Source of the DNA: Melioribacteraceae bacterium
Lineage (GTDB): Bacteria > Bacteroidota > Ignavibacteria > Ignavibacteriales > Melioribacteraceae
Direction of reading: 5' to 3'
Assembly: GCA_024103215.1 (NCBI GenBank)
Contig: JAGFIY010000127.1
Coordinates: 62,001-126,000 of the forward strand
DNA: 64,000 nt
Both the position numbers and the translations under genes were made by a program. Of the stretch, positions 18,254-29,982 are shown piece by piece (position 1 is the first letter of the stretch; the number at the start of each line of letters is the position of its first letter). The notes under the pieces are model-generated. The model did no database searches. It had not been told where the DNA came from and was given only the letters and a program-made list of their open reading frames with translations.

Positions 18254-18273
18254 GCAATAAATTTTTTATTGCA
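18253..18273 (+). other. Perfect 9-bp hairpin before the first ATP-grasp gene
   Basis: TGCAATAAA (18253-18261) and TTTATTGCA (18265-18273) form a perfect inverted repeat with a 3-base loop. It would lie at or just after the proposed transcription start. It could also be a weak recG terminator, but it is AT-rich and has no long T tract after it. Its right arm is part of a 13-base direct copy of the end of recG. Confidence 0.4.
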
Positions 18274-18286
18274 TAAAGTTAATTTT

Positions 18287-19339
18287 GTGTTTACAAAAAA
18301 ATTTAAAGTAGCACTTACATATAACGTTAAACCGGAAGAAGATCCCGCCTTTAAAAGTCACTCACAACATGCTTACTCAATCGATAAAGATGAGTATGCG
18401 GAGTGGGATACTTACGAAACTATCCATGCAATCAGAGATGCACTGAGTATCTATAACGATGTTACTCTTGTTGAAGCAGATAATAATTGCTTTGAATCAT
18501 TCAGGCAACTCAAACCCGATATAGTCTTTAATATAAGCGAAGGGAAAAACGGAATAAGTAGAGAAGCACAAATTCCTGCCATTCTCGATATGCTCGAAAT
18601 TCCTTATACCGGTTCCGATCCGTTAACTTTATCGACATGCTTGGATAAAGGAAGAACAAAAGAAATTTTAACTTTTCATAAAATTCCTACTCCAAAATTT
18701 CAAGTCGTTAAAACTATTGAGCAGTTAAAAAATTTCGAACTGAATTTCCCTGTAATATATAAACCGCTTCAAGAAGGTTCAAGCAAGGGGATTTTTGATT
18801 CTTCTGTTGTGGACGATTTTTTCGAATTAAAAGAAAAAATTGGGATTCACATTGAAAGGTATAATCAACCGGTAATAGTTGAAGAGTTTTTATCGGGACG
18901 CGAATTCACGGTTGCGTTATTAGGCAATGGAGAAGAAACAAAAGTTCTTCCAATTGTAGAAATGCGTTTTGACGAATTCCCCGAAGAATTGAATCCAATT
19001 TATTCTTACGAAGCAAAATGGATTTACGATACCCCCGAAAAACCGCTAAACATATATAATTGTCCAGCAGATCTAGATAAAGCACTCGAAGAAAAAATAA
19101 AATCAACAGTCCTAAATACATATAATATTCTCAACTGTAAGGATTGGTCACGCATTGATGTAAGACTTGATTCAAACGGAGTTCCTAATATAATTGAGGT
19201 TAACCCACTCCCGGGTGTGCTTCCTAATCCGGATAATAATTCATGTTATCCTAAAGCGGCACGAACTGCCGGACTCGATTATTCGACAACACTAAATATG
19301 GTACTGCTTTCTGCAATGAGAAGATACGGAATGCAATGA
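18287..19339 (+). CDS. D-alanine-D-alanine ligase-like ATP-grasp protein (first copy)
   Basis: A 350-residue ATP-grasp ligase of the Ddl superfamily, which activates a carboxylate as acyl phosphate and joins it to an amine. Visible are the glycine-rich loop KPLQEGSSKG, VEEFLSGREFTVALLG, and the metal-binding end IEVNPLPG followed by PKAARTAGL. These closely follow true Ddl. A second ligase, a GNAT enzyme and an aminomutase follow directly, so a special amide-forming role is as likely as peptidoglycan synthesis. The start is taken as GTG at 18287; an in-frame TTG at 18269 is an alternative, but it overlaps the hairpin and sits too close to the possible promoter. The gene overlaps the next by 4 bases. 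Confidence 0.85.
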   Translation: MFTKKFKVALTYNVKPEEDPAFKSHSQHAYSIDKDEYAEWDTYETIHAIRDALSIYNDVTLVEADNNCFESFRQLKPDIVFNISEGKNGISREAQIPAILDMLEIPYTGSDPLTLSTCLDKGRTKEILTFHKIPTPKFQVVKTIEQLKNFELNFPVIYKPLQEGSSKGIFDSSVVDDFFELKEKIGIHIERYNQPVIVEEFLSGREFTVALLGNGEETKVLPIVEMRFDEFPEELNPIYSYEAKWIYDTPEKPLNIYNCPADLDKALEEKIKSTVLNTYNILNCKDWSRIDVRLDSNGVPNIIEVNPLPGVLPNPDNNSCYPKAARTAGLDYSTTLNMVLLSAMRRYGMQ

Positions 19340-20379
19340 TTGCAAATCCCAAAATATTAATCTGCTATAATGAACCGATAGGGATTTACAAAAACTATAT
19401 CGGGAAAACACCTCTGAAAGATGAGGATAATATTGATCTGTCGGAAATTAATATTTCGAAACAAATAGAATCTATTAAGGCTATTGTAGCACAAAAATAT
19501 CCCGATGTATTTCAACTTCCTATTTCAAGCAACATTCAAAATGCTTATGAAAATCTGAATGAAATCAAACCTGATGCTATCATAAATTTTGTCGAATCGG
19601 TTGATGGTATCGCTGACTACGAATCTTTTGTAACAGGACTTTTTGATATTCTAGGTCTTTCATACACAGGGAATAATAGTCTGACTCTCGGAAACTGTCT
19701 TGATAAAATAAGAACCAAACACATATTAAAATCTTTTGGAATAAGCACACCGAACTACATTCACCTTCGAAGAAACAGAGAGGTTGATGAGAAGCAATTC
19801 AATTTAAATTTCCCGGTGATCACAAAATTAATCAGCGAAGATGCAAGTATTGGCATTTCGGAAAAATCAGTAGTGAATAATTTTTCAGAATTAAAAAAAC
19901 AGATAAAATTTTTATTCAGACACTACAAAAAAGATGTTATACTGGAAGAATTTATTGTCGGGCGAGAAATTAATGTATCAATTTTTGGTAATGATATTTT
20001 ACCATTATCGGAAATAAGATTCGACGAACTTCCTGCTGATCTTCCAAAACTTGTTACTTACGAAGCAAAGTGGGCGCCAAACTCAATTTATTATTCTTCA
20101 ACAAAACCTGTTTGTCCTGCTGTTATTACCAAACGTGTAGAGAAAAGGATCAAAGATGTAGCACTGAGTGCATTTCGTGCACTTAACTGTAGAGATTATG
20201 CAAGAGTTGATATAAGACTCAACAGCAATTATACCCCTTTCGTTATTGAGGTTAATCCCAATCCCGATATATCACCCGACTCCGGGTTTATAAGATCCGC
20301 AAAGAATTTCGGGTTTACTTATGAAGACGTAATTTACAGGTTAATTGAATTTGCTTTAAAGAGGACAGTACATGATTAG
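19336..20379 (+). CDS. D-alanine-D-alanine ligase-like ATP-grasp protein (second copy)
   Basis: A 347-residue diverged paralogue of the preceding ligase, starting in an ATGA overlap. It keeps the ATP-grasp frame: LEEFIVGREINVSIFG, VDIRLNSN, and the metal-binding IEVNPNPD. The substrate regions differ. The loop KLISEDASIG replaces KPLQEGSSKG, and the Ddl-type PG after EVN..P is replaced by PDISPDSG. Active residues appear present, so it is probably a working ligase with another substrate, not a relic. Two adjacent unlike ligases suggest two successive couplings, or a heteromeric enzyme. Confidence 0.82.
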   Translation: MIANPKILICYNEPIGIYKNYIGKTPLKDEDNIDLSEINISKQIESIKAIVAQKYPDVFQLPISSNIQNAYENLNEIKPDAIINFVESVDGIADYESFVTGLFDILGLSYTGNNSLTLGNCLDKIRTKHILKSFGISTPNYIHLRRNREVDEKQFNLNFPVITKLISEDASIGISEKSVVNNFSELKKQIKFLFRHYKKDVILEEFIVGREINVSIFGNDILPLSEIRFDELPADLPKLVTYEAKWAPNSIYYSSTKPVCPAVITKRVEKRIKDVALSAFRALNCRDYARVDIRLNSNYTPFVIEVNPNPDISPDSGFIRSAKNFGFTYEDVIYRLIEFALKRTVHD

Positions 20380-20857
20380 GAAGGTAGTTAAAGAAGATTA
20401 TGATTCTTTGGTAACAATAATTAATTCGATTGATATATTCAGTGGAGAAGAAAAAGACGTTGCAATAGAATTAATTAACGAATCTATTTTTAATAATGAA
20501 CAAGATTATTATAATACTTATGTTTTTGTTGAGAAAAATATAATTTTGGGTTATCATTGTATAGGTAAAAGATCTTTAACTGATGCAGTTTATGATTTAT
20601 ATTGGATAGTTGTTAGTCCAAGTGTTCAAAGTAAAGGAGTAGGGCAAAAACTTTTGGAACACGCAGAAAAATTCGCGAGGGAAAAAGGAGGAAGATGGGT
20701 GCTCGCCGAAACATCTTCATCAGAAAATTATTTTCGTACAAGAAATTTTTATTTGAGAAACAATTATACAATTGTATCGCAAATTAATGATTTCTATAAG
20801 ATGAAAGATAACCTTATAGTTTTCGGAAAGTATTTAAACAATACAAAGGAACCCTAA
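20372..20857 (+). CDS. GNAT family N-acetyltransferase
   Basis: A 161-residue GCN5-related acetyltransferase. The acetyl-CoA pyrophosphate loop is VVSPSVQSKGVGQKLL (near 88-103, Q-x2-G-x-G). The later FYLRNNY segment (near 126-132) fits the last motif of the fold. The acceptor amine is unknown. It overlaps the second ATP-grasp gene by 8 bases and shares a base with the aminomutase start. A GNAT enzyme beside KamA recalls AblB/YodP, the beta-lysine acetyltransferases, but this protein is much shorter than those (about 260-280 residues), so the match is only suggestive. Confidence 0.8.
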   Translation: MIRKVVKEDYDSLVTIINSIDIFSGEEKDVAIELINESIFNNEQDYYNTYVFVEKNIILGYHCIGKRSLTDAVYDLYWIVVSPSVQSKGVGQKLLEHAEKFAREKGGRWVLAETSSSENYFRTRNFYLRNNYTIVSQINDFYKMKDNLIVFGKYLNNTKEP

Positions 20858-22014
20858 TGGAACTATGGCAACAAATGATTCGTGACAGCGTTCACTCTGT
20901 CGATCAATTGGTTGAAAAGTTCGGTATCGATAGAAAAGTTGCGGAAGATCTTGACGAGTTCTTCCAGGCAAGAATTAACCCATATTATCTCAGTTTAATC
21001 AGATATAAAGGCGACCCTATCTGGCTTCAATCAGTACCGGATAAAGTGGAGTTGGATGACATTGATGGTTCGCCGGATCCGTTGAACGAAGATGAAATGA
21101 GTCCGGTTCCAAACATCACACATCGTTATCCCGACCGGTGTCTTTTTCTCGTAACAAGCCAATGCGGAATGTACTGTCGTTTTTGCACACGCAAAAGAAA
21201 AGTTGGTGACAGCGGTAAAATTTCTATGAAAGAACTTGAATCCGCTTTTAAATACATTGAAGATCATAAAGAAATCCGTGATATAATTTTATCCGGTGGT
21301 GATCCACTAATGCTGACCGATGTTATGATCGAGAAGGTGTTAGCTCGCCTAAGATCAATAGAACATGTCGAAATCATCCGCATAGGCACAAAGATGCCAT
21401 GTGTTCTTCCACATAGAATTACACCTAACTTGTGTAAAATTCTAAAAAAGTATCATCCTATTTATATAAATACTCATTTTAATCATCCGTGGGAAATTAC
21501 TGAGGAAAGCACCAAAGCCTGCGGAATGTTAGTTGATGCCGGCTGCCCTGTTAATAACCAAGCTGTTCTGATGAAAGGTGTTAACGATGATCCCAAGGTG
21601 ATGAAAGAATTATTTCAAAAATTATTAAAAATAAGAGTTCGTCCATATTATCTATTTATGGCGGATGAAACACGCGGAGCGAATCACTTCCGAACTTCTG
21701 TTGAGAAAGGTCTTGAAATTATGGACGCACTTCGCGGACATACTAGCGGGATGGCAATTCCTCATTTTGTTATCGACGCACCCGGCGGCGGTGGTAAAAT
21801 TCCGCTTCTTCCGAAGTATGTAATCCACAGAGACGAAGAAAAAGTTATAATGAGGAATTATAAAAACGAAATTTATGTTTATAAGGAAGCAAATTATTCG
21901 TCGAATGGATTTAATAACGAGGATAATGCAGTCGAAATTGAATATTCGGGAAATAACGGAAACGGAAGGCACAGCAATGTAAATACTGAAAGAAAAGTAA
22001 CTGAAATTTCTTGA
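20857..22014 (+). CDS. KamA family radical SAM aminomutase (lysine 2,3-aminomutase-like)
   Basis: A 385-residue radical SAM, PLP-dependent aminomutase. The cluster motif CGMYCRFC places C103, C107 and C110 around the 4Fe-4S cluster, and R112 matches the carboxylate-binding Arg of clostridial lysine 2,3-aminomutase. The PLP lysine is K314 in DAPGGGGK. The two Asp residues that bind the lysine side chain in the clostridial enzyme (D293, D330) align with D270 and D307, which fits L-lysine rather than glutamate as substrate. The last 40 residues are Asn/Glu-rich and unlike the fold. The start is the TAATG overlap with the GNAT gene. An EF-P modifying role (EpmB-like) is less likely, as no EpmA or EF-P gene is near. 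Confidence 0.88.
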   Translation: MELWQQMIRDSVHSVDQLVEKFGIDRKVAEDLDEFFQARINPYYLSLIRYKGDPIWLQSVPDKVELDDIDGSPDPLNEDEMSPVPNITHRYPDRCLFLVTSQCGMYCRFCTRKRKVGDSGKISMKELESAFKYIEDHKEIRDIILSGGDPLMLTDVMIEKVLARLRSIEHVEIIRIGTKMPCVLPHRITPNLCKILKKYHPIYINTHFNHPWEITEESTKACGMLVDAGCPVNNQAVLMKGVNDDPKVMKELFQKLLKIRVRPYYLFMADETRGANHFRTSVEKGLEIMDALRGHTSGMAIPHFVIDAPGGGGKIPLLPKYVIHRDEEKVIMRNYKNEIYVYKEANYSSNGFNNEDNAVEIEYSGNNGNGRHSNVNTERKVTEIS

Positions 22015-22530: not shown

Positions 22531-23429
22531 TCAATTTCCTTTGAATTGTTATTTGATTTTCTAACGTCAAGTCCCCAGAATAATTTACTGCGAAGAATCT
22601 CGAAGTATTCGCTCGATTTTGTATGAACAAGTCTTACGGGATTTTCACTTTTTTTAATTTTTATTACCGCGGGCGATTTAAAATCATAAACCCGTTGACC
22701 GTCGCAATTAACTTGAATAGAATTATATGCCGACTCAACTGTTATTTCAATCGTTTGCTTGCTGGAAATAACAAGTGGGCGCATAGTAAGCGTATGAGGT
22801 GATATCGGACTAATAACAATTGCATCGGTTTTAGGAGTAATAATCGGTCCGCCTGTCGATAATGAATAACCCGTGGAACCCGTTGGCGTTGCAATAATCA
22901 AACCGTCAGCGGAAAAGGTTGAAACATATTCTTCATCAATTTTCATCGTCATTTCGATCATCTTGGGCCATCTTCCTTTATCGATCACAACATCGTTAAT
23001 TGCAAACAATTCGCCCATCTCACCGTTTTTACAAAATGCTTCAAGAGCCATTCTTTCTTCAATTACATAATGCTTCGATTTGATATCGCTTATAAACTGA
23101 TCCATATTATTAATATCAAACTCAGCTAAGAAACCAAGTTTGCCAAAATTAACACCGAGTAGAGGCGTCTTAAAATGTCTGGCTTCGTATGCGGTTTGGA
23201 GCATCGTTCCGTCTCCGCCAATCGATAGTACAATATCACATGAAGAATATAATTCGGAATCTTGAACAAATTTGATTGATGGAATGCTTTTTAATTTATC
23301 CTCGTTTTTCCCGATTGCAGTAGTGCCGATAAAAAATTCGAAATTGTTGTCCTCTAACTTCTTGATAAGAAGTTTAACAAGATCAAAAATCTTCGGTTTA
23401 GTGATATTAGGTATTATACCGATCTTCAT
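22527..23429 (-). CDS. nadK: NAD kinase
   Basis: NAD kinase phosphorylates NAD to NADP with ATP or polyphosphate. The 300-residue protein has the diagnostic GGDGTML motif (D73), NFGKLGFLAEF (near 95), the substrate site ATPTGSTGYSLSTGGPI (near 180) and the C-terminal DGQ. Four-base overlaps join it to the glycosyltransferase gene upstream and the thioredoxin-like gene downstream, so it is cotranscribed with LPS genes. That grouping need not be functional. Confidence 0.96.
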   Translation of the reverse strand: MKIGIIPNITKPKIFDLVKLLIKKLEDNNFEFFIGTTAIGKNEDKLKSIPSIKFVQDSELYSSCDIVLSIGGDGTMLQTAYEARHFKTPLLGVNFGKLGFLAEFDINNMDQFISDIKSKHYVIEERMALEAFCKNGEMGELFAINDVVIDKGRWPKMIEMTMKIDEEYVSTFSADGLIIATPTGSTGYSLSTGGPIITPKTDAIVISPISPHTLTMRPLVISSKQTIEITVESAYNSIQVNCDGQRVYDFKSPAVIKIKKSENPVRLVHTKSSEYFEILRSKLFWGLDVRKSNNNSKEIE

Positions 23430-24190
23430 TTATTGCTCTTATTATTCTTTATTTCCCAGAGTTTAGCATACTTTACAAAAACGTACATACTAGAAAACAC
23501 AGCAAGAATAAATCCATGGATACCGTCACGGTAACCTTGACGTAAGATAAACATTTTTACAAAAATAAAAACCGGTCTTAAGAAAAGATCGTTAATCGAT
23601 GCCTTTTCTTTTTTTGTTTTTAGTTCTTCGGCTGCAAGTGTTGTGTATCTGTTCAACTTTTCGAAATAATGGTGTATATTAGGATCGGTATAATGTTCAA
23701 GATCGGAATTTAATTTCCCCGAAATTCCTTCATAGATTAAATGTTCGTGAACATTACTGTCGCTGAATTTAACTTTATTTTTATCGAACAACCTCTCAAC
23801 TCTTCCTGGATACCATCCGCTGTTCTTGATCCATTTCCCCAAAAAATATGCTTTCCTTGGAATGCTATATACAGAAAATTCTTTTTTATCATTCTTTAAT
23901 TGATTTAATTCTACAGACAATTCCGGAGTGACAGCTTCATCAGCATCTATCCATAAAATCCAGTTGTTAGTGCAGTATGAAACGGCTTCCTGCTTTGTTT
24001 GCGAATATCCCTTCCAATCTGTTTTTATGCACTTTACTTTGTCACCGTAACTCTGAACCAAAGGGAATGTATTATCGGTCGATTTGCTGTCAACCAATAC
24101 TATTATTTCATCGATACAATCCATTAAACTGTTGAGGCAACGTTTTATATTATTTTCTTCGTTTTTTGCTATGGTGATTGACGAAATCAA
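23426..24190 (-). CDS. Glycosyltransferase family 2, WaaE/KdtX-like
   Basis: A 254-residue GT-A fold glycosyltransferase. The N-terminal ITIAKNEENNIKRCL and the CIDEIIVLVDSKSTDNT region bind the nucleotide sugar. WIDADEAV near residue 84 is the metal-binding DxD-type motif. Family features continue with HEHL (near 147) and a C-terminal hydrophobic stretch. Proteins of this shape (WaaE/KdtX type) add glucose to the LPS inner core. Position between an O-antigen ligase and nadK supports an LPS role. The exact sugar is inference. Confidence 0.85.
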   Translation of the reverse strand: MISSITIAKNEENNIKRCLNSLMDCIDEIIVLVDSKSTDNTFPLVQSYGDKVKCIKTDWKGYSQTKQEAVSYCTNNWILWIDADEAVTPELSVELNQLKNDKKEFSVYSIPRKAYFLGKWIKNSGWYPGRVERLFDKNKVKFSDSNVHEHLIYEGISGKLNSDLEHYTDPNIHHYFEKLNRYTTLAAEELKTKKEKASINDLFLRPVFIFVKMFILRQGYRDGIHGFILAVFSSMYVFVKYAKLWEIKNNKSNK

Positions 24191-24198
24191 ATTTTACT

Positions 24199-26247
24199 CT
24201 ACGACTGTTTTTTAATCTCGGTTTGCTTAGCAGCGATACTTATTCCAACCGAATACCAAACCAATGTTATTATTTCGTGATCTCCGAAATTCCATTCTGC
24301 TAAGCCTGAAACTAAAAATCCTACAAAAGCCGCAAATGATGCAGCTACAACTGCTTTTGGAAATTCCGAATGCTTTACCATCATGAAATTACGAAGATGA
24401 ACAATGAATATTTTTATTAATAAAAAGACAAATACTATAAATCCGATTACACCTAGTATAACAAGTACATGTACGTAATTGTTGTGTAGATGACCAAAAT
24501 CTTCTTTTTCCCAGTACTCTCTATACTCCGAATATGTTTGCTTTAGATCAATATCCCCCACACCGAAAAATGGATTATCTGCAAGAATATTAATACCGAT
24601 TTTCCATTGCTGTAATCTTTGAAGATTGGTATTATGGTTTAAATCAATTACTGAAAGAAGCCTATTTTTTTTGACCGAGGTTACAATTAGCCTATCCTCA
24701 GCTATCTGCACAGAAACAGGCTGATACGAAAAAGTTGCTATTTTTTCACTAATTAATTCTTGGTTCTCAATTTTGATAGAATAAACTTCTCCGTTGTAAC
24801 ATACGGCAATAATTGATTCATTCACGCTGTGGAAACTATGAACGCTTGGAAGTATCAATTCTTTTGTATTAATTTTTGATTCGTTTAACGGAACAACCCT
24901 CAATCCATGCTGGCTTCCAAGCAGAACAAAATTATCTGTAATTTTTATGCTTGGCGAAACAGTATTGATTTTCTCACTGTAAATCTCATTGCTGATTTTC
25001 TCGCCATCAACTTTTGTAAAGATATATTTGTTATTTTTTGTCGAATAGAAGACAAGTAAAGAATCAGAAACATCAAGTCGTAAAATATTCTCGTCATTGA
25101 AATATCTAAAACTACTTTTTGTATTAGACGGATTATTAAAAACAGTCAGTCCGCTGTCAAGTTCGGCAACATATAAAACTCCATTGATAATTTTATAATC
25201 GGTTATATTCCCGGGAGAAATAAATTCGCTATCCAAACGAATTGAATCATCTGCGATTGAAAATATGAACATTCTTTTATCAACTAAAATTCCCAGATAA
25301 CTTTCATCTTTCCATTTATCAACAACAATTACTGGAGATTTCGTTTCAAATGAATTTACTAGATTATTCCCTTCATAAATTTTGATACCGTCCTCGTAAT
25401 CAGCAACTAAGAGTTTGTTCGCTTCCGAAAAAACATTTTTTGCGCTTCCATCTGTTTCAAAACTTACTATTTCGTTTAATCCTTTTTCCAAAATATCGTA
25501 AGTGTAGATTCTACTTTCATCTTTTTCTATAATCAAATATAGAATTATTGCAACAACCGCAGGTATCAAATAAATCCACTTTCGATAAAGTATTAGCAAG
25601 AAGAAAATACCTGTTAAAGCTCCCAACCACGCTGCCCGAGTGTAACTTGAAAGCAGAGCAACTGCAGTCACTGATGCACCAATGAAATAAAATATTTTCT
25701 CTTTCGAGATTTTATTTTGACTAAAAAAAAGAGATGCAAAAAATATAAGTGTAAAGCTCATTAACCCGCCTGCAGTCATAACATATTGAAATGGTGACGG
25801 ACCTTTTTGTTCAATAGTATAAAGTTGATTTACGAAATGCTCAAATGCGAATCCTATATAAAACATTGTTGTCAACAGTGCGGCAGCTAAATACGTAAGT
25901 ACGAATTGTTTCAGTCTAGTTGGTGAATCAGCGGTTGAAGCAACAACATAAATGATCGGTAAAAGCAACACTCTTTTTAAAACATTTTGAAACGCGTTAG
26001 CCGAGTAATCAGAAAGTAGTGCAGAAATAATTTCAACAACAACAAACAACAATAGAGGTAATTCCAAACCAGTTTTTCTGAATAAGGTTTTTCCGGTAAG
26101 GTAATACTTTACAATCAAAAGCAGAAGCGCCCCATAGTACCCAATTTGATTAACAAATATGGAATTTGTTAAACTTGCTAAAAAGAGAATAACAAACACG
26201 AAAATTGCAATGTCAATTATTCTTATGGTTTTTGAGCTTTTGGGCAT
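24199..26247 (-). CDS. O-antigen ligase/polymerase family protein with inserted beta-propeller-like domain
   Basis: A 682-residue WaaL-type membrane protein. About eight hydrophobic segments occupy residues 10-240, with the family SSYTRAAWLGA near 200-210. The ligase continues at RLQQWKIG.NILADNPFFGVGD (near 544-565), HLHNNYVHVLVILGVIGF (586-603), and final membrane segments (595-617, 632-652, 658-673). Between them, residues about 255-540 form an extra periplasmic domain, made of seven segments of 35-40 residues rich in strand patterns such as NKLLVADYEDGIKIY and NGVLYVAELDSGLTVF, as in a seven-bladed propeller. Typical WaaL proteins have about 400 residues and no such domain. It probably joins O-antigen or another glycan to lipid A-core. 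Confidence 0.82.
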   Translation of the reverse strand: MPKSSKTIRIIDIAIFVFVILFLASLTNSIFVNQIGYYGALLLLIVKYYLTGKTLFRKTGLELPLLLFVVVEIISALLSDYSANAFQNVLKRVLLLPIIYVVASTADSPTRLKQFVLTYLAAALLTTMFYIGFAFEHFVNQLYTIEQKGPSPFQYVMTAGGLMSFTLIFFASLFFSQNKISKEKIFYFIGASVTAVALLSSYTRAAWLGALTGIFFLLILYRKWIYLIPAVVAIILYLIIEKDESRIYTYDILEKGLNEIVSFETDGSAKNVFSEANKLLVADYEDGIKIYEGNNLVNSFETKSPVIVVDKWKDESYLGILVDKRMFIFSIADDSIRLDSEFISPGNITDYKIINGVLYVAELDSGLTVFNNPSNTKSSFRYFNDENILRLDVSDSLLVFYSTKNNKYIFTKVDGEKISNEIYSEKINTVSPSIKITDNFVLLGSQHGLRVVPLNESKINTKELILPSVHSFHSVNESIIAVCYNGEVYSIKIENQELISEKIATFSYQPVSVQIAEDRLIVTSVKKNRLLSVIDLNHNTNLQRLQQWKIGINILADNPFFGVGDIDLKQTYSEYREYWEKEDFGHLHNNYVHVLVILGVIGFIVFVFLLIKIFIVHLRNFMMVKHSEFPKAVVAASFAAFVGFLVSGLAEWNFGDHEIITLVWYSVGISIAAKQTEIKKQS

Positions 26248-28097
26248 TAATTATCTCTAAATTGTAATTCGTATAGTTTCTTGTAAATACCTCTTTCATC
26301 AGCAACAAGTTCTGCATGCTTGCCTTCTTGAACAATTTTGCCTTTGTCAAGAACAATTATTTTGTCAGCATTCCTTATTGTACTTAATCTATGAGCAATC
26401 ACAAGGGTAGTTCTGTCTTTCATTAGTCTTTCAATTGCTTCCTGAACAAGTACTTCTGATTCATTGTCTAATGCAGATGTTGCTTCATCAAATATCATAA
26501 TCGGCGGATTAACAAACAGCGCACGGGCAATTGAAATTCTTTGACGTTGTCCGCCAGAAAGTTTTGCGCCCCGTTCGCCAATAATGGTATTATATCCCCT
26601 TGGAAATTCAGTAATAAAGTTATGAGCGTTCGCTGCTTTTGCCGCAACAATAATTTCGTCTAACGGAATATCTGTTTGACCGTAAGCAATATTATTTTTA
26701 ATTGTGTCGTTAAAAAGAACTGTTTCTTGTGTTACGATTCCAAGAAGCGACCGCAGATTATCCAGCTTCAGTGTTTTAATATCATTACCATCGATTAAAA
26801 TCATTCCATCCGTTGGATCATAGAATCGAGGGATTAAGTCAATCAATGTTGATTTACCCGCACCGCTGCTTCCCACAATCGCAATAATTTTACCTTTATT
26901 TGCCGAGAAACTAACATCGTTCAACACGAGTTCATCAGAATCTTCATAATGGAATGAAACGTTTTTAAACTCAATCTTGTCTTTGAAATCCTTTATCGGT
27001 TTTGCATCCGGAAGATCTTCTATCACCGGCGCAGTATCAATAATCTGGAATATACGATCCGCTGCTGCACTTGATTCTTGAATTCTATTATTCACGCTGC
27101 TCAATTCTTTTATAGGAGGCATTAACTGGAATATCGCAAATAAAAATCCTAGGAATTCGCTTGCTTTCAGTGATTGATCTTCAAGCACCAACTGACCTCC
27201 GTAATAAACCATTATTACGCCGACTACAACACTTAAAAATTCAGTGACTGGGCTCGCTATATTCTTAATTCGCACTATTCGCAGCACCAAACGGAAATAA
27301 TTGGTTGTTTCATTTTCAAATTTCTTGTTCTCATATGCTTCCATCCCAAAGGCTTTTACAATCTTTACTCCCGAAATTGTTTCTTGCAGAACCGAGGTTA
27401 TATCCGCCATTTTTTCTTGCAGAATCGTACTTTGTTTACGTAGAATTTTCCCGATATAAGCAATAATCCCCAACGAAAACGGGAGTACGACAAACGAAAA
27501 AAGTGTCAGTTTGACACTTATAGAAAGAGCGATTCCAAGAAAAACTATAATTGTTAATGGTTCCCGTATTAAATTCAAAAAGACTGCAGCAACTGATTGT
27601 TGAACCACATTTACATCATTTGTAATTCTTGAGATCAGATTGCCGGTTCTTTCATTTTTGAAATAACTCATCGGGAGCAGATGAAGATGCCGGTAAGCTT
27701 TATTTCTTAAATCCTTTATTACGCCCTGTTCAACAAAGGCTAAAAAATAAGCTTGAAGATATCCGAACACATTTTTCAAGAAAAATGTTATTAAAATGAG
27801 GAGGCAAATTTTGAATAAAACTTCCGATACAGTTCCGGAAAGCACATAATTTTCAAATGTTTCTTTGATATTTGTAATTGTTTCGGTAATCCATCCGGGA
27901 GCAATATCGGAACTGCTTTCAACAATACTTGATGTTCCAGGTTTTTCCTTTTCCAAAAAAAGCGTGTCCAAAAGTGGTATCGTAAGATAAACCGACAACC
28001 CACTCAAAACAGAAAACAGTATTGTACACCCTATTGAAAGTCCCAAATGCTTCCAATATGGTTTTACAAAGGATAATATTCTGTAGTAAGTTTTCAA
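26247..28097 (-). CDS. MsbA-like lipid A/polysaccharide ABC exporter
   Basis: A 616-residue half-transporter with an N-terminal six-helix membrane domain and a C-terminal ATPase. The Walker A motif is GSSGAGKS at 409-416, the signature LSGGQ is at 513-517, Walker B is IMIFDEA (D537, E538), and the switch His is H569 in IAHRLSTI. An extended loop of about 40 residues lies between the first two membrane segments (about 48-88). MsbA-type proteins flip lipid A-core. The direct neighbours (O-antigen ligase, GT2) support this, but other lipid-linked substrates are possible. Its stop codon shares a base with the ligase gene start. Confidence 0.9.
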   Translation of the reverse strand: MKTYYRILSFVKPYWKHLGLSIGCTILFSVLSGLSVYLTIPLLDTLFLEKEKPGTSSIVESSSDIAPGWITETITNIKETFENYVLSGTVSEVLFKICLLILITFFLKNVFGYLQAYFLAFVEQGVIKDLRNKAYRHLHLLPMSYFKNERTGNLISRITNDVNVVQQSVAAVFLNLIREPLTIIVFLGIALSISVKLTLFSFVVLPFSLGIIAYIGKILRKQSTILQEKMADITSVLQETISGVKIVKAFGMEAYENKKFENETTNYFRLVLRIVRIKNIASPVTEFLSVVVGVIMVYYGGQLVLEDQSLKASEFLGFLFAIFQLMPPIKELSSVNNRIQESSAAADRIFQIIDTAPVIEDLPDAKPIKDFKDKIEFKNVSFHYEDSDELVLNDVSFSANKGKIIAIVGSSGAGKSTLIDLIPRFYDPTDGMILIDGNDIKTLKLDNLRSLLGIVTQETVLFNDTIKNNIAYGQTDIPLDEIIVAAKAANAHNFITEFPRGYNTIIGERGAKLSGGQRQRISIARALFVNPPIMIFDEATSALDNESEVLVQEAIERLMKDRTTLVIAHRLSTIRNADKIIVLDKGKIVQEGKHAELVADERGIYKKLYELQFRDN

Positions 28098-29338
28098 TTT
28101 TTATATACTAAAGGAATACTCTTGATCCCGCAATCGCCGGGACCAGATATTTCAAATAATTTCTTATCGGACTTCATTAATATACAATTTATGATCTGTT
28201 TTTCTTCATTTATACTTTCGTAAAATAGTAATCCGCCGTATAGAAGATAAGATAAATTTTGTTTACCTGAATAGACATTTGTAAGTTTCCTCTCGGGTAA
28301 AGAGTAATTATAGATACGATACGTCGATTTTGTTGAATCTTGAGAAATAAATTCATCGAACTTTGTTTTGAAAACCAAATTCTCATCATCATTAGAGAGA
28401 CGAATATTTATCATTTTGCCGGGGACGAAAATAGTGTGGCTAATACCCTTCACATTGAATCCAAGAAGAAGTGAATCGTCAAGAGAGCTGATAGTAAGTT
28501 TTAATTTTGAAAACAATTCCGATTCAAGCGTCGAAACATAATCCACCGGGAAACCATCGCGAAGTAAATTATGAACTGAAACAAGCGAATCTATCAAATT
28601 CCCTTTCCTATTAAAGCTCAAATCTTTCTCAATAATGTTTGAGGAGTTTACTGTATCCATCATCTTGAATGTAACGTGAAAAGTATCAGGGTGATTCCAC
28701 TGCGAACTTATTCTAAGCCCGTCTCCAAATTTTTCCAGCTCTTTGATTTGTCGTGTTACTTTTGAATAGTGAAAAACTCTACCATCCGTTATATATGGGA
28801 AACCTCCGCTTCTGCCAAAAGTTAGTGCGGTTGTAAAAATATAGTTTTGAAAATCTGGTCCCGAATAAAGATTAAGAACTTTCTTCCCCCACCTATCAAA
28901 AATCATCTTAATATTTTTTGAGATCAGGTTATAACTATAAACAGCAGGTCTATTTTGATAATTGGTTACGAACAAGAAATCCGAATAATATTCTTTGTGA
29001 TGATTATAATTCTCAAAAAGATTTATTTCTGAAATTAATCCCTCGGTATAAAATTCAAAACCGCGCGTCCAAGCATTCAAAGGATTTTTATACATTCCGT
29101 AAAAAAGTTTAAATCCTGAAGTCTCCAAATCTTCAATTAAAGTTAACTTTGAATTTCCATCCCGGTAAAATCGTGGTCTCCATTTTTTTAGGAGTTCAAG
29201 CGAATCAACATTTTCCTCCAGCAAGATCGAATAAAAATTTCTTTTTTCCTCTGATTTATGTTTTATGCCTTCTTCACTTTTTTCAGTTGAACAGGAAAAA
29301 AACAAAAGGACAAGTAAAATTATTATAAGCTTTTTCAT
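28094..29338 (-). CDS. Putative lipoprotein of unknown function
   Basis: A 414-residue predicted lipoprotein. From the ATG at 29338 the protein begins MKKLIIILLVLLFFSCSTEK, a lipoprotein signal with lipobox LFFSC (Cys 16 or so). This start overlaps the protease gene by 4 bases. An upstream in-frame start at 29404 would bury the signal, so I reject it. The rest is strand-rich, with many aromatic residues (VYSYNLISK, YRIYNYSLPERK), which recalls a propeller or TolB-like fold. I recognise no family. Its position just before the ABC exporter and O-antigen ligase suggests an envelope role, possibly in the same LPS pathway. Confidence 0.7.
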   Translation of the reverse strand: MKKLIIILLVLLFFSCSTEKSEEGIKHKSEEKRNFYSILLEENVDSLELLKKWRPRFYRDGNSKLTLIEDLETSGFKLFYGMYKNPLNAWTRGFEFYTEGLISEINLFENYNHHKEYYSDFLFVTNYQNRPAVYSYNLISKNIKMIFDRWGKKVLNLYSGPDFQNYIFTTALTFGRSGGFPYITDGRVFHYSKVTRQIKELEKFGDGLRISSQWNHPDTFHVTFKMMDTVNSSNIIEKDLSFNRKGNLIDSLVSVHNLLRDGFPVDYVSTLESELFSKLKLTISSLDDSLLLGFNVKGISHTIFVPGKMINIRLSNDDENLVFKTKFDEFISQDSTKSTYRIYNYSLPERKLTNVYSGKQNLSYLLYGGLLFYESINEEKQIINCILMKSDKKLFEISGPGDCGIKSIPLVYKN

Positions 29339-29982
29339 CTTAGTCCAAACAAGAAATAAATTAAAGAAATCACAAAACTGATTAAACTTATAAAATAATC
29401 CCATAACGGGCTGTAAATAAAAAGAAGGAGCAAAATTGTTCCGTAAAGTCCCAAATTTAAAAATCTTGCAGTAAAATTATTTGGGAAAAAATCGTATATA
29501 AGATGAGAACCATCAAGCGGTGGAATTGGAATCAAATTAAAAAAGCACAAAAATATGTTTATAAAAACTCCGAATAAAAACATTTCTGTAATCATTTCTC
29601 CTAATACAGCTAAAATTTGAAATACTTTTAACAGAATAGCAAATACAAATGCAAGTCCCAGATTTGACAGAGGACCTGCCGCAGAAACCGCAGCATCTCC
29701 CATTAGTCCGTTTCTTAATTTATGAGGATTTACCGGTACAGGTTTAGCCCAACCGATTAGGGCAAAACCGGATGAGAAGGCTAATATCGGCATAATAATA
29801 CTGCCGACTAGGTCCAAGTGTTTTATTGGATTTAGTGTAAGTCTTCCGTGGCTTTTTGCAGTGTCATCACCAAGTTTATATGCTGTGGCAGCATGAGCAA
29901 ATTCATGCACCGCAATGGAGATAAGAAAAAACGGGATGAATAATAAAAACATAATTAATCTTTCACTTACTTCGATACCCAA
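29335..29982 (-). CDS. Site-2 protease family (M50) membrane metalloprotease
   Basis: A 215-residue multi-pass membrane protein with the zinc-protease motif HEFAH at residues 26-30 (H26, E27, H30). The third ligand lies in the block NLIPIPPLDGSH (near 148-159). The short form without a PDZ domain is the rhomboid-sized S2P group found widely in bacteria. Such proteases cut transmembrane segments, often of anti-sigma factors. A candidate anti-sigma factor is coded at 42736, but no link can be shown from sequence. It follows xerD by 1 base and overlaps the lipoprotein gene by 4 bases. Confidence 0.9.
   Translation of the reverse strand: MGIEVSERLIMFLLFIPFFLISIAVHEFAHAATAYKLGDDTAKSHGRLTLNPIKHLDLVGSIIMPILAFSSGFALIGWAKPVPVNPHKLRNGLMGDAAVSAAGPLSNLGLAFVFAILLKVFQILAVLGEMITEMFLFGVFINIFLCFFNLIPIPPLDGSHLIYDFFPNNFTARFLNLGLYGTILLLLFIYSPLWDYFISLISFVISLIYFLFGLR

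Follow-up and report, generated by a model that had tools for sequence, protein, structure and literature searches.

The window, that is, the whole stretch of 64,000 nucleotides that was analyzed, encodes on its minus strand a protein homologous to WaaL-type O-antigen ligases that is interrupted by a predicted seven-bladed β-propeller of approximately 285 residues. The propeller opens the main periplasmic loop of the enzyme, between transmembrane helices TM9 and TM10, and half of one of its faces is conserved to the same degree as the catalytic core. In the genomes sampled, ligases carrying this domain (long forms) are restricted to a clade.

A WaaL-type ligase interrupted by a predicted β-propeller

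The coordinates of the gene and its parts are collected in the table below. A sequence-only reading had proposed a ligase with a propeller-like insertion here; the frame is genuine, though it is on the minus strand, as the plus strand implied by the given coordinates contains no frame and many stops. The ATG, at position 26247, shares one base with the stop codon of the msbA-like gene. The core motifs quoted in that reading are present, TRAAWLG at residues 203 to 209, NPFFGVGD at 558 to 565, and HLHNNYVHVL at 586 to 595. Pfam Wzy_C is matched at 2.5e-20 (73.2 bits versus a cutoff of 31.7), with only weak noise besides; the scan retrieved no PglL-specific Pfam domains, and neither Pfam nor NCBIfam scans found a glycosyltransferase (GT) domain in the ligase.

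A profile of the membrane core, built from long forms pooled with forms that lack the insert (short forms), aligns nearly end to end with the solved WaaL structure 7tpg (E value of 1.8e-17). In this alignment R204, R544, and H588 correspond to R191, R265, and H313 of 7tpg, and the three residues are invariant across a 22-sequence alignment. The stretch H588-N589 to G599-V-I-G602 fits H[NSQ]x9Gxx[GTY], which we take to be the ligase motif. In WaaL-type ligases, two arginines bind the phosphates of undecaprenyl diphosphate (Und-PP), and a histidine has been proposed to activate the acceptor (PMC10920833); R204, R544, and H588 are probably the equivalents of these residues. AlphaFold2 (AF2) predicts 12 membrane helices with the large loop between TM9 and TM10, which by homology should face the periplasm. 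The enzyme would thus be expected to transfer an Und-PP-linked glycan to lipid A-core, and the msbA and GT2 neighbors are consistent with this activity. A second, ordinary Wzy_C protein of 471 amino acids is encoded elsewhere in the same genome.

The limits of the insertion are set by relatives within the Ignavibacteria. Short forms of about 395 amino acids match profile residues ~4 to 241 and ~529 to 684 with few residues between them, and in direct alignment the short orthologs bridge residue ~240/241 to residue ~528/529 with about five residues. The insertion therefore spans residues ~241 to 528 rather than 265 to 540 (positions 24630 to 25455), as first proposed; its length of about 285 residues stands, but the earlier start omitted the first two strands (residues 244 to 264), which close the ring. 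Among 51 long forms the insert measures 284 to 302 residues and is the most divergent region of the protein, with a mean pairwise identity of 24.5% versus 43% and 52% in the flanks.

The fold was predicted by a single method, AF2, run on an alignment of 51 related orthologs, and gave a mean pLDDT of 90.1 and a pTM of 0.87 for the full-length protein and of 94.4 and 0.91, respectively, for the insert alone. The 28 predicted strands of the insert form seven four-stranded blades closed as a ring by a 2+2 velcro, where outer strands 244 to 253 and 256 to 264 complete the last blade together with inner strands 510 to 516 and 519 to 526. Given this strand order, the chain enters and leaves the propeller at the B-C turn of blade 7. 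The first strands of the blades begin at residues 269, 306, 348, 388, 433, 469, and 510, matching the seven segments counted previously by eye (starts at 272, 305, 346, 385, 430, 466, and 507).

A Foldseek search with the insert alone listed 50 matches, essentially all of them propellers. The best is the seven-bladed WD40 domain of beta-TrCP (E value of 3.9e-10; TM score of 0.67 by query), and BamB is among the best matches beside peptide-binding WD40 domains. The A4 profile picks up PDB propellers, both designed and natural, and the full-length profile matches Tako8 at 7e-6. Pfam LVIVD (PF08309) is matched by 15 of the 51 orthologous inserts (best value, 2.5e-13); the Pfam scan found no such match for the insert of the window, which on the evidence of its relatives would be of the LVIVD repeat type. 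Structure prediction and fold search, which the sequence-only reading had suggested as checks, thus both return a propeller, and together with the profiles and the comparison with relatives missing the insert they support a seven-bladed propeller in a WaaL-type ligase. In another part of the genome, at locus L131 (G000:C153:58089-58427), a frame with an internal stop contains a stretch that resembles a propeller and is related to the insert (E value of 1.1e-7).

Features of the ligase gene and its immediate neighbors, in positions of the window
Feature	Position	Strand	Basis
msbA-like lipid A flippase, immediately upstream of long-form and short-form ligases	26247..28097	minus	TIGR02203, synteny
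WaaL/Wzy_C-type ligase gene with propeller insertion, 682 aa	24199..26247	minus	open frame, Pfam Wzy_C, 7tpg match
N-terminal membrane half, residues 1-240, TM1-TM9	25528..26247	minus	AF2 helices; common to short forms
R204, periplasmic end of TM8, aligned with R191 of 7tpg	25636..25638	minus	alignment
Insertion, residues ~241-528, predicted seven-bladed LVIVD/WD40-like β-propeller	~24664-25524	minus	short-form comparison, AF2, LVIVD, Foldseek
Blade 7 outer strands C and D (244-264), N-terminal part of velcro	25456..25518	minus	AF2
Blade 1 (269-300), conserved B-C turn D283-Y284-x-x-G287	25348..25443	minus	AF2, conservation
Blade 2 (306-342), conserved D323-x-R325	25222..25332	minus	AF2, conservation
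Blade 3 (348-382), conserved D/E362-x-D364-S-G366, LVIVD-like	25102..25206	minus	AF2, conservation
Blade 4 (388-426), weakly conserved	24970..25086	minus	AF2, conservation
Blade 5 (433-464), weakly conserved	24856..24951	minus	AF2, conservation
Blade 6 (469-505), weakly conserved	24733..24843	minus	AF2, conservation
Blade 7 inner strands A and B (510-526), C-terminal part of velcro	24670..24720	minus	AF2
Remaining periplasmic loop and TM10-TM12, residues 529-682	24202..24663	minus	Pfam, AF2, 7tpg alignment
R544, aligned with R265 of 7tpg	24616..24618	minus	alignment
Ligase motif H588-N589-x9-G599-x-x-G602; H588 aligned with H313 of 7tpg	24442..24486	minus	sequence, alignment
GT2 glycosyltransferase, often directly downstream of ligase	23426..24190	minus	Pfam, synteny

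Distribution, ancestry, and gene slot

Two conserved core peptides were scanned against about 85,000 species genomes, a scan that is also the only coverage of other phyla. Among its best 80 loci, 54 are long forms (L021 to L074, some of them fragments), and the other 26, which score lower, represent either short forms or pieces of the C-terminal part. The records of the long forms are named Ignavibacteriales, Melioribacteraceae, Ignavibacteriaceae, or unresolved Bacteroidota/Ignavibacteria, and one is labeled Chlorobiaceae. Within the class 294 genomes were sampled, and within the phylum 297; here the long form occurs in three families belonging to the window's order and in a single family from another order, and it is absent from the rest of the sample. 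Other long Wzy_C frames of the phylum (G059, G157, and G441) were rejected as further propeller ligases, being explained by frame overrun or C-terminal repeats. The insert is not a general WaaL loop either, since it is absent from most homologs, including orthologs in the same gene slot; the condition under which the sequence-only reading would have fallen, a loop common to all WaaL homologs, does not hold.

In a tree of the core only, with the insert columns removed, all 52 long forms lie on one side of a branch with an SH-aLRT value of 99. One change of form suffices on this tree, and no member of the long clade has reverted to short. The tree itself is undirected; gain of the insert is preferred over loss because 7tpg and a relative from Krumholzibacteriota (L100) also lack it. 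Three long forms (L060, L061, and L063) nest within Melioribacteraceae on a long branch. They may correspond to the family of long forms that falls beyond the window's order (f13); gene transfer is possible.

The order msbA, ligase, GT2, nadK, and thioredoxin-like gene is often common to long and short forms, which are therefore orthologs in place. The msbA-like gene matches TIGR02203 at 2.4e-166 with 555 bits, somewhat under the model cutoff of 602. The GT2 gene begins eight bases past the ligase stop and lies several kilobases away in some long-form loci. Some genomes of the window's order (G002, G023, G024, and G046) hold a divergent short Wzy_C protein in the slot. Such proteins with the HNx9GxxG motif follow msbA at L157 (G002), L156 (G023), and L160 (G046), as natural replacements. 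In G008 (L159), GT2 and nadK come immediately after msbA, a natural deletion that leaves the slot without a ligase. The empty slot and the divergent proteins indicate that the ligase is dispensable.

Upstream of msbA, a fast-evolving lipoprotein (positions 28094 to 29404) adjoins this gene in many but not all long-form loci; Pfam and NCBIfam scans of it gave no match. The sequence-only reading had named it as a possible partner of the propeller, a doubtful suggestion given that several long-form loci lack it beside msbA, for which reason an obligate partnership was rejected. It was also rejected as a second propeller, as its profile matches in the PDB are nonsignificant (TolB, E value of 0.11). 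On the plus strand, a run at 18269 to 22014 stays beside the ligase operon in many long-form loci. Judged by eye from the sequence, it comprises a tandem pair of ATP-grasp genes (D-Ala-D-Ala ligase-like), a gene for a GNAT acetyltransferase, and a lysine 2,3-aminomutase-like gene; the aminomutase and GNAT pair recalls acetyl-β-lysine osmolyte synthesis.

The conserved half-face and possible roles of the propeller

Conservation per residue was projected onto the AF2-predicted strands. In blades 1 to 3 the B-C turns and D-A loops score 0.49 to 0.61, comparable to the core (0.51 to 0.56), whereas the same elements in blades 4 to 6 score 0.20 to 0.39. The A-B and C-D turns lie mostly at 0.24 to 0.44, and the propeller outside the conserved loops mostly at 0.20 to 0.40. 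In propellers, B-C turns and D-A loops lie on one face. The B-C junction of blade 7 is on this same face, and the conserved half-face should accordingly be turned toward membrane and active site.

The core itself contains 23 positions that are conserved only in long forms. About 15 of these map to periplasmic loops or to those ends of TM1 and TM2 that face the periplasm (L26, N28, F31, N33, Q34, G36, Y37, P97, Y143, G149, P150, Y155, Y202, F561, and K581). These positions and the conserved half-face fit a docked propeller without proving docking: the conserved D..G turns of blades 1 to 3 could be left over from the structure of the LVIVD repeat, and the residues specific to long forms may reflect common ancestry, the long forms being one clade. 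The pTM of the full-length model appears too high for two freely tumbling domains and, taken with the topology, suggests that the propeller is docked rigidly on the ligase.

The following explanation is preferred. An inner-membrane WaaL-type ligase would move an Und-PP-linked glycan onto lipid A-core in the periplasm. A complete LVIVD-type propeller of seven blades would have been inserted once, in Ignavibacteriales, where the catalytic periplasmic loop begins, with TM9 before it and the segment with the phosphate-binding arginine after it. Entry and exit at the B-C turn of blade 7 would direct the B-C/D-A face toward the membrane and the active site, and the conserved half-face would dock on the periplasmic surface of the ligase. 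Docked in this way, the propeller would act as an immobile platform above the active site, holding in position either the lipid A-core acceptor or the incoming Und-PP glycan; we give this reading slightly less than an even chance.

The main rival, distinctly possible though unlikely, makes the propeller a docking scaffold that localizes the ligase without touching sugars, by binding another envelope protein such as the Lpt bridge, a chain-length regulator, or parts of the type IX secretion system (T9SS). Protein binding is common among propellers, the fold search ranks peptide-binding WD40 domains and BamB highest, and the fast divergence of the insert is what partner-facing surfaces may show. 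The 3.2-Mb genome of the window also has about 100 matches to PF18962, the T9SS C-terminal domain, and in Porphyromonas gingivalis T9SS cargo is joined to lipopolysaccharide (LPS), whose glycan is bound by the envelope propeller protein PorZ (PMC8545088). However, the conserved face is the membrane side and not the exposed side, no neighbor is strictly linked (the lipoprotein is missing in several long-form loci), and msbA and nadK flank short forms too.

A bolder reading, in which the propeller is a built-in specificity module that chooses which acceptor or glycan is used or couples the ligase physically to an envelope machine, e.g., Lpt or type IX secretion, is rather unlikely. A link to LPS-anchored secretion is conceivable because of the abundant T9SS tails and the LPS-binding PorZ of Porphyromonas. 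If the propeller were such a module, the enzyme would represent a type of glycan ligase that owes its specificity to a periplasmic propeller grafted into it.

It is improbable that the protein polymerizes glycans or O-glycosylates proteins, as other Wzy_C enzymes do, with the propeller recognizing that other acceptor. The family spans ligases, polymerases, and PglL-type enzymes that are not separable by sequence alone, and the 471-residue Wzy_C protein could be the ligase of this genome instead; against this, long and short forms both keep the slot beside msbA and GT2, the core can be aligned with WaaL 7tpg, and the PglL-specific Pfam family was not seen. A passive insertion, structurally tolerated and with no specific role, would agree with the low identity, with the weak conservation of blades 4 to 6, and with relatives that work without the propeller, with a divergent short Wzy_C protein, or with no ligase in the slot. 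It is nevertheless very improbable, as the length stays nearly constant (284 to 302 residues) across lineages at 25 to 40% identity, one half-face is conserved like the catalytic core, and no reversion is seen in the long clade of the tree. An artifact, either a misassembly fusion or a chance repeat pattern, found no support even though the window stems from a multicontig assembly, and it is refuted by the same open frame in dozens of independent assemblies, including that of the isolate Stygiobacter electus, which carries the long form; constant length in 51 orthologs, a confidently predicted propeller, and the structural and profile matches show that the insertion and its repeat pattern are not chance.

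To our knowledge, the determinants of acceptor and glycan choice by WaaL ligases are poorly understood. The lineage offers matched natural controls, in which the slot is filled with a propeller-bearing ligase, with one lacking the propeller, or with a divergent ligase, or is empty (at least one case), and the role of the propeller is therefore directly testable.

Comparison with known systems

The WaaL/Wzy_C ligase family is already known. In the open-access literature, neither a propeller-bearing O-antigen ligase nor a large ligand-binding domain in the catalytic loop was found, in agreement with the sequence-only reading, which knew of no described case; no published description of a propeller insertion in such a ligase was thus found. 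The WaaL of Cupriavidus metallidurans (7tpg/7tpj; PF04932) shares with the ligase of the window the 12 helices (predicted here), the Arg/Arg/His positions, and HNx9GxxG, but has only a short stretch at the position of the propeller. Short-form orthologs in other Ignavibacteria (for example, L079, L084, and L094) occupy the same slot with about 40 to 45% identity in the C-terminal part, yet have no propeller and measure ~395 amino acids.

Propellers made of LVIVD repeats (PF08309) resemble the insert through the matches of its orthologs and the DxDSGLTVF motif, whereas in the window's own insert the LVIVD signal is lost beyond recognition and the domain interrupts a membrane enzyme. PorZ is, by description, likewise an envelope propeller protein of the same phylum, but it is secreted as a protein of its own, with two propellers and a T9SS tail. 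Among ligases that bear an additional domain, the nearest precedent is WadA of Brucella, a GT121 ligase with an appended N-terminal cytoplasmic GT25 domain (PMC9938171, PMC10920833). The extra domain of WadA is cytoplasmic and catalytic, whereas that of the ligase described here would be a noncatalytic periplasmic propeller placed within the ligase itself.
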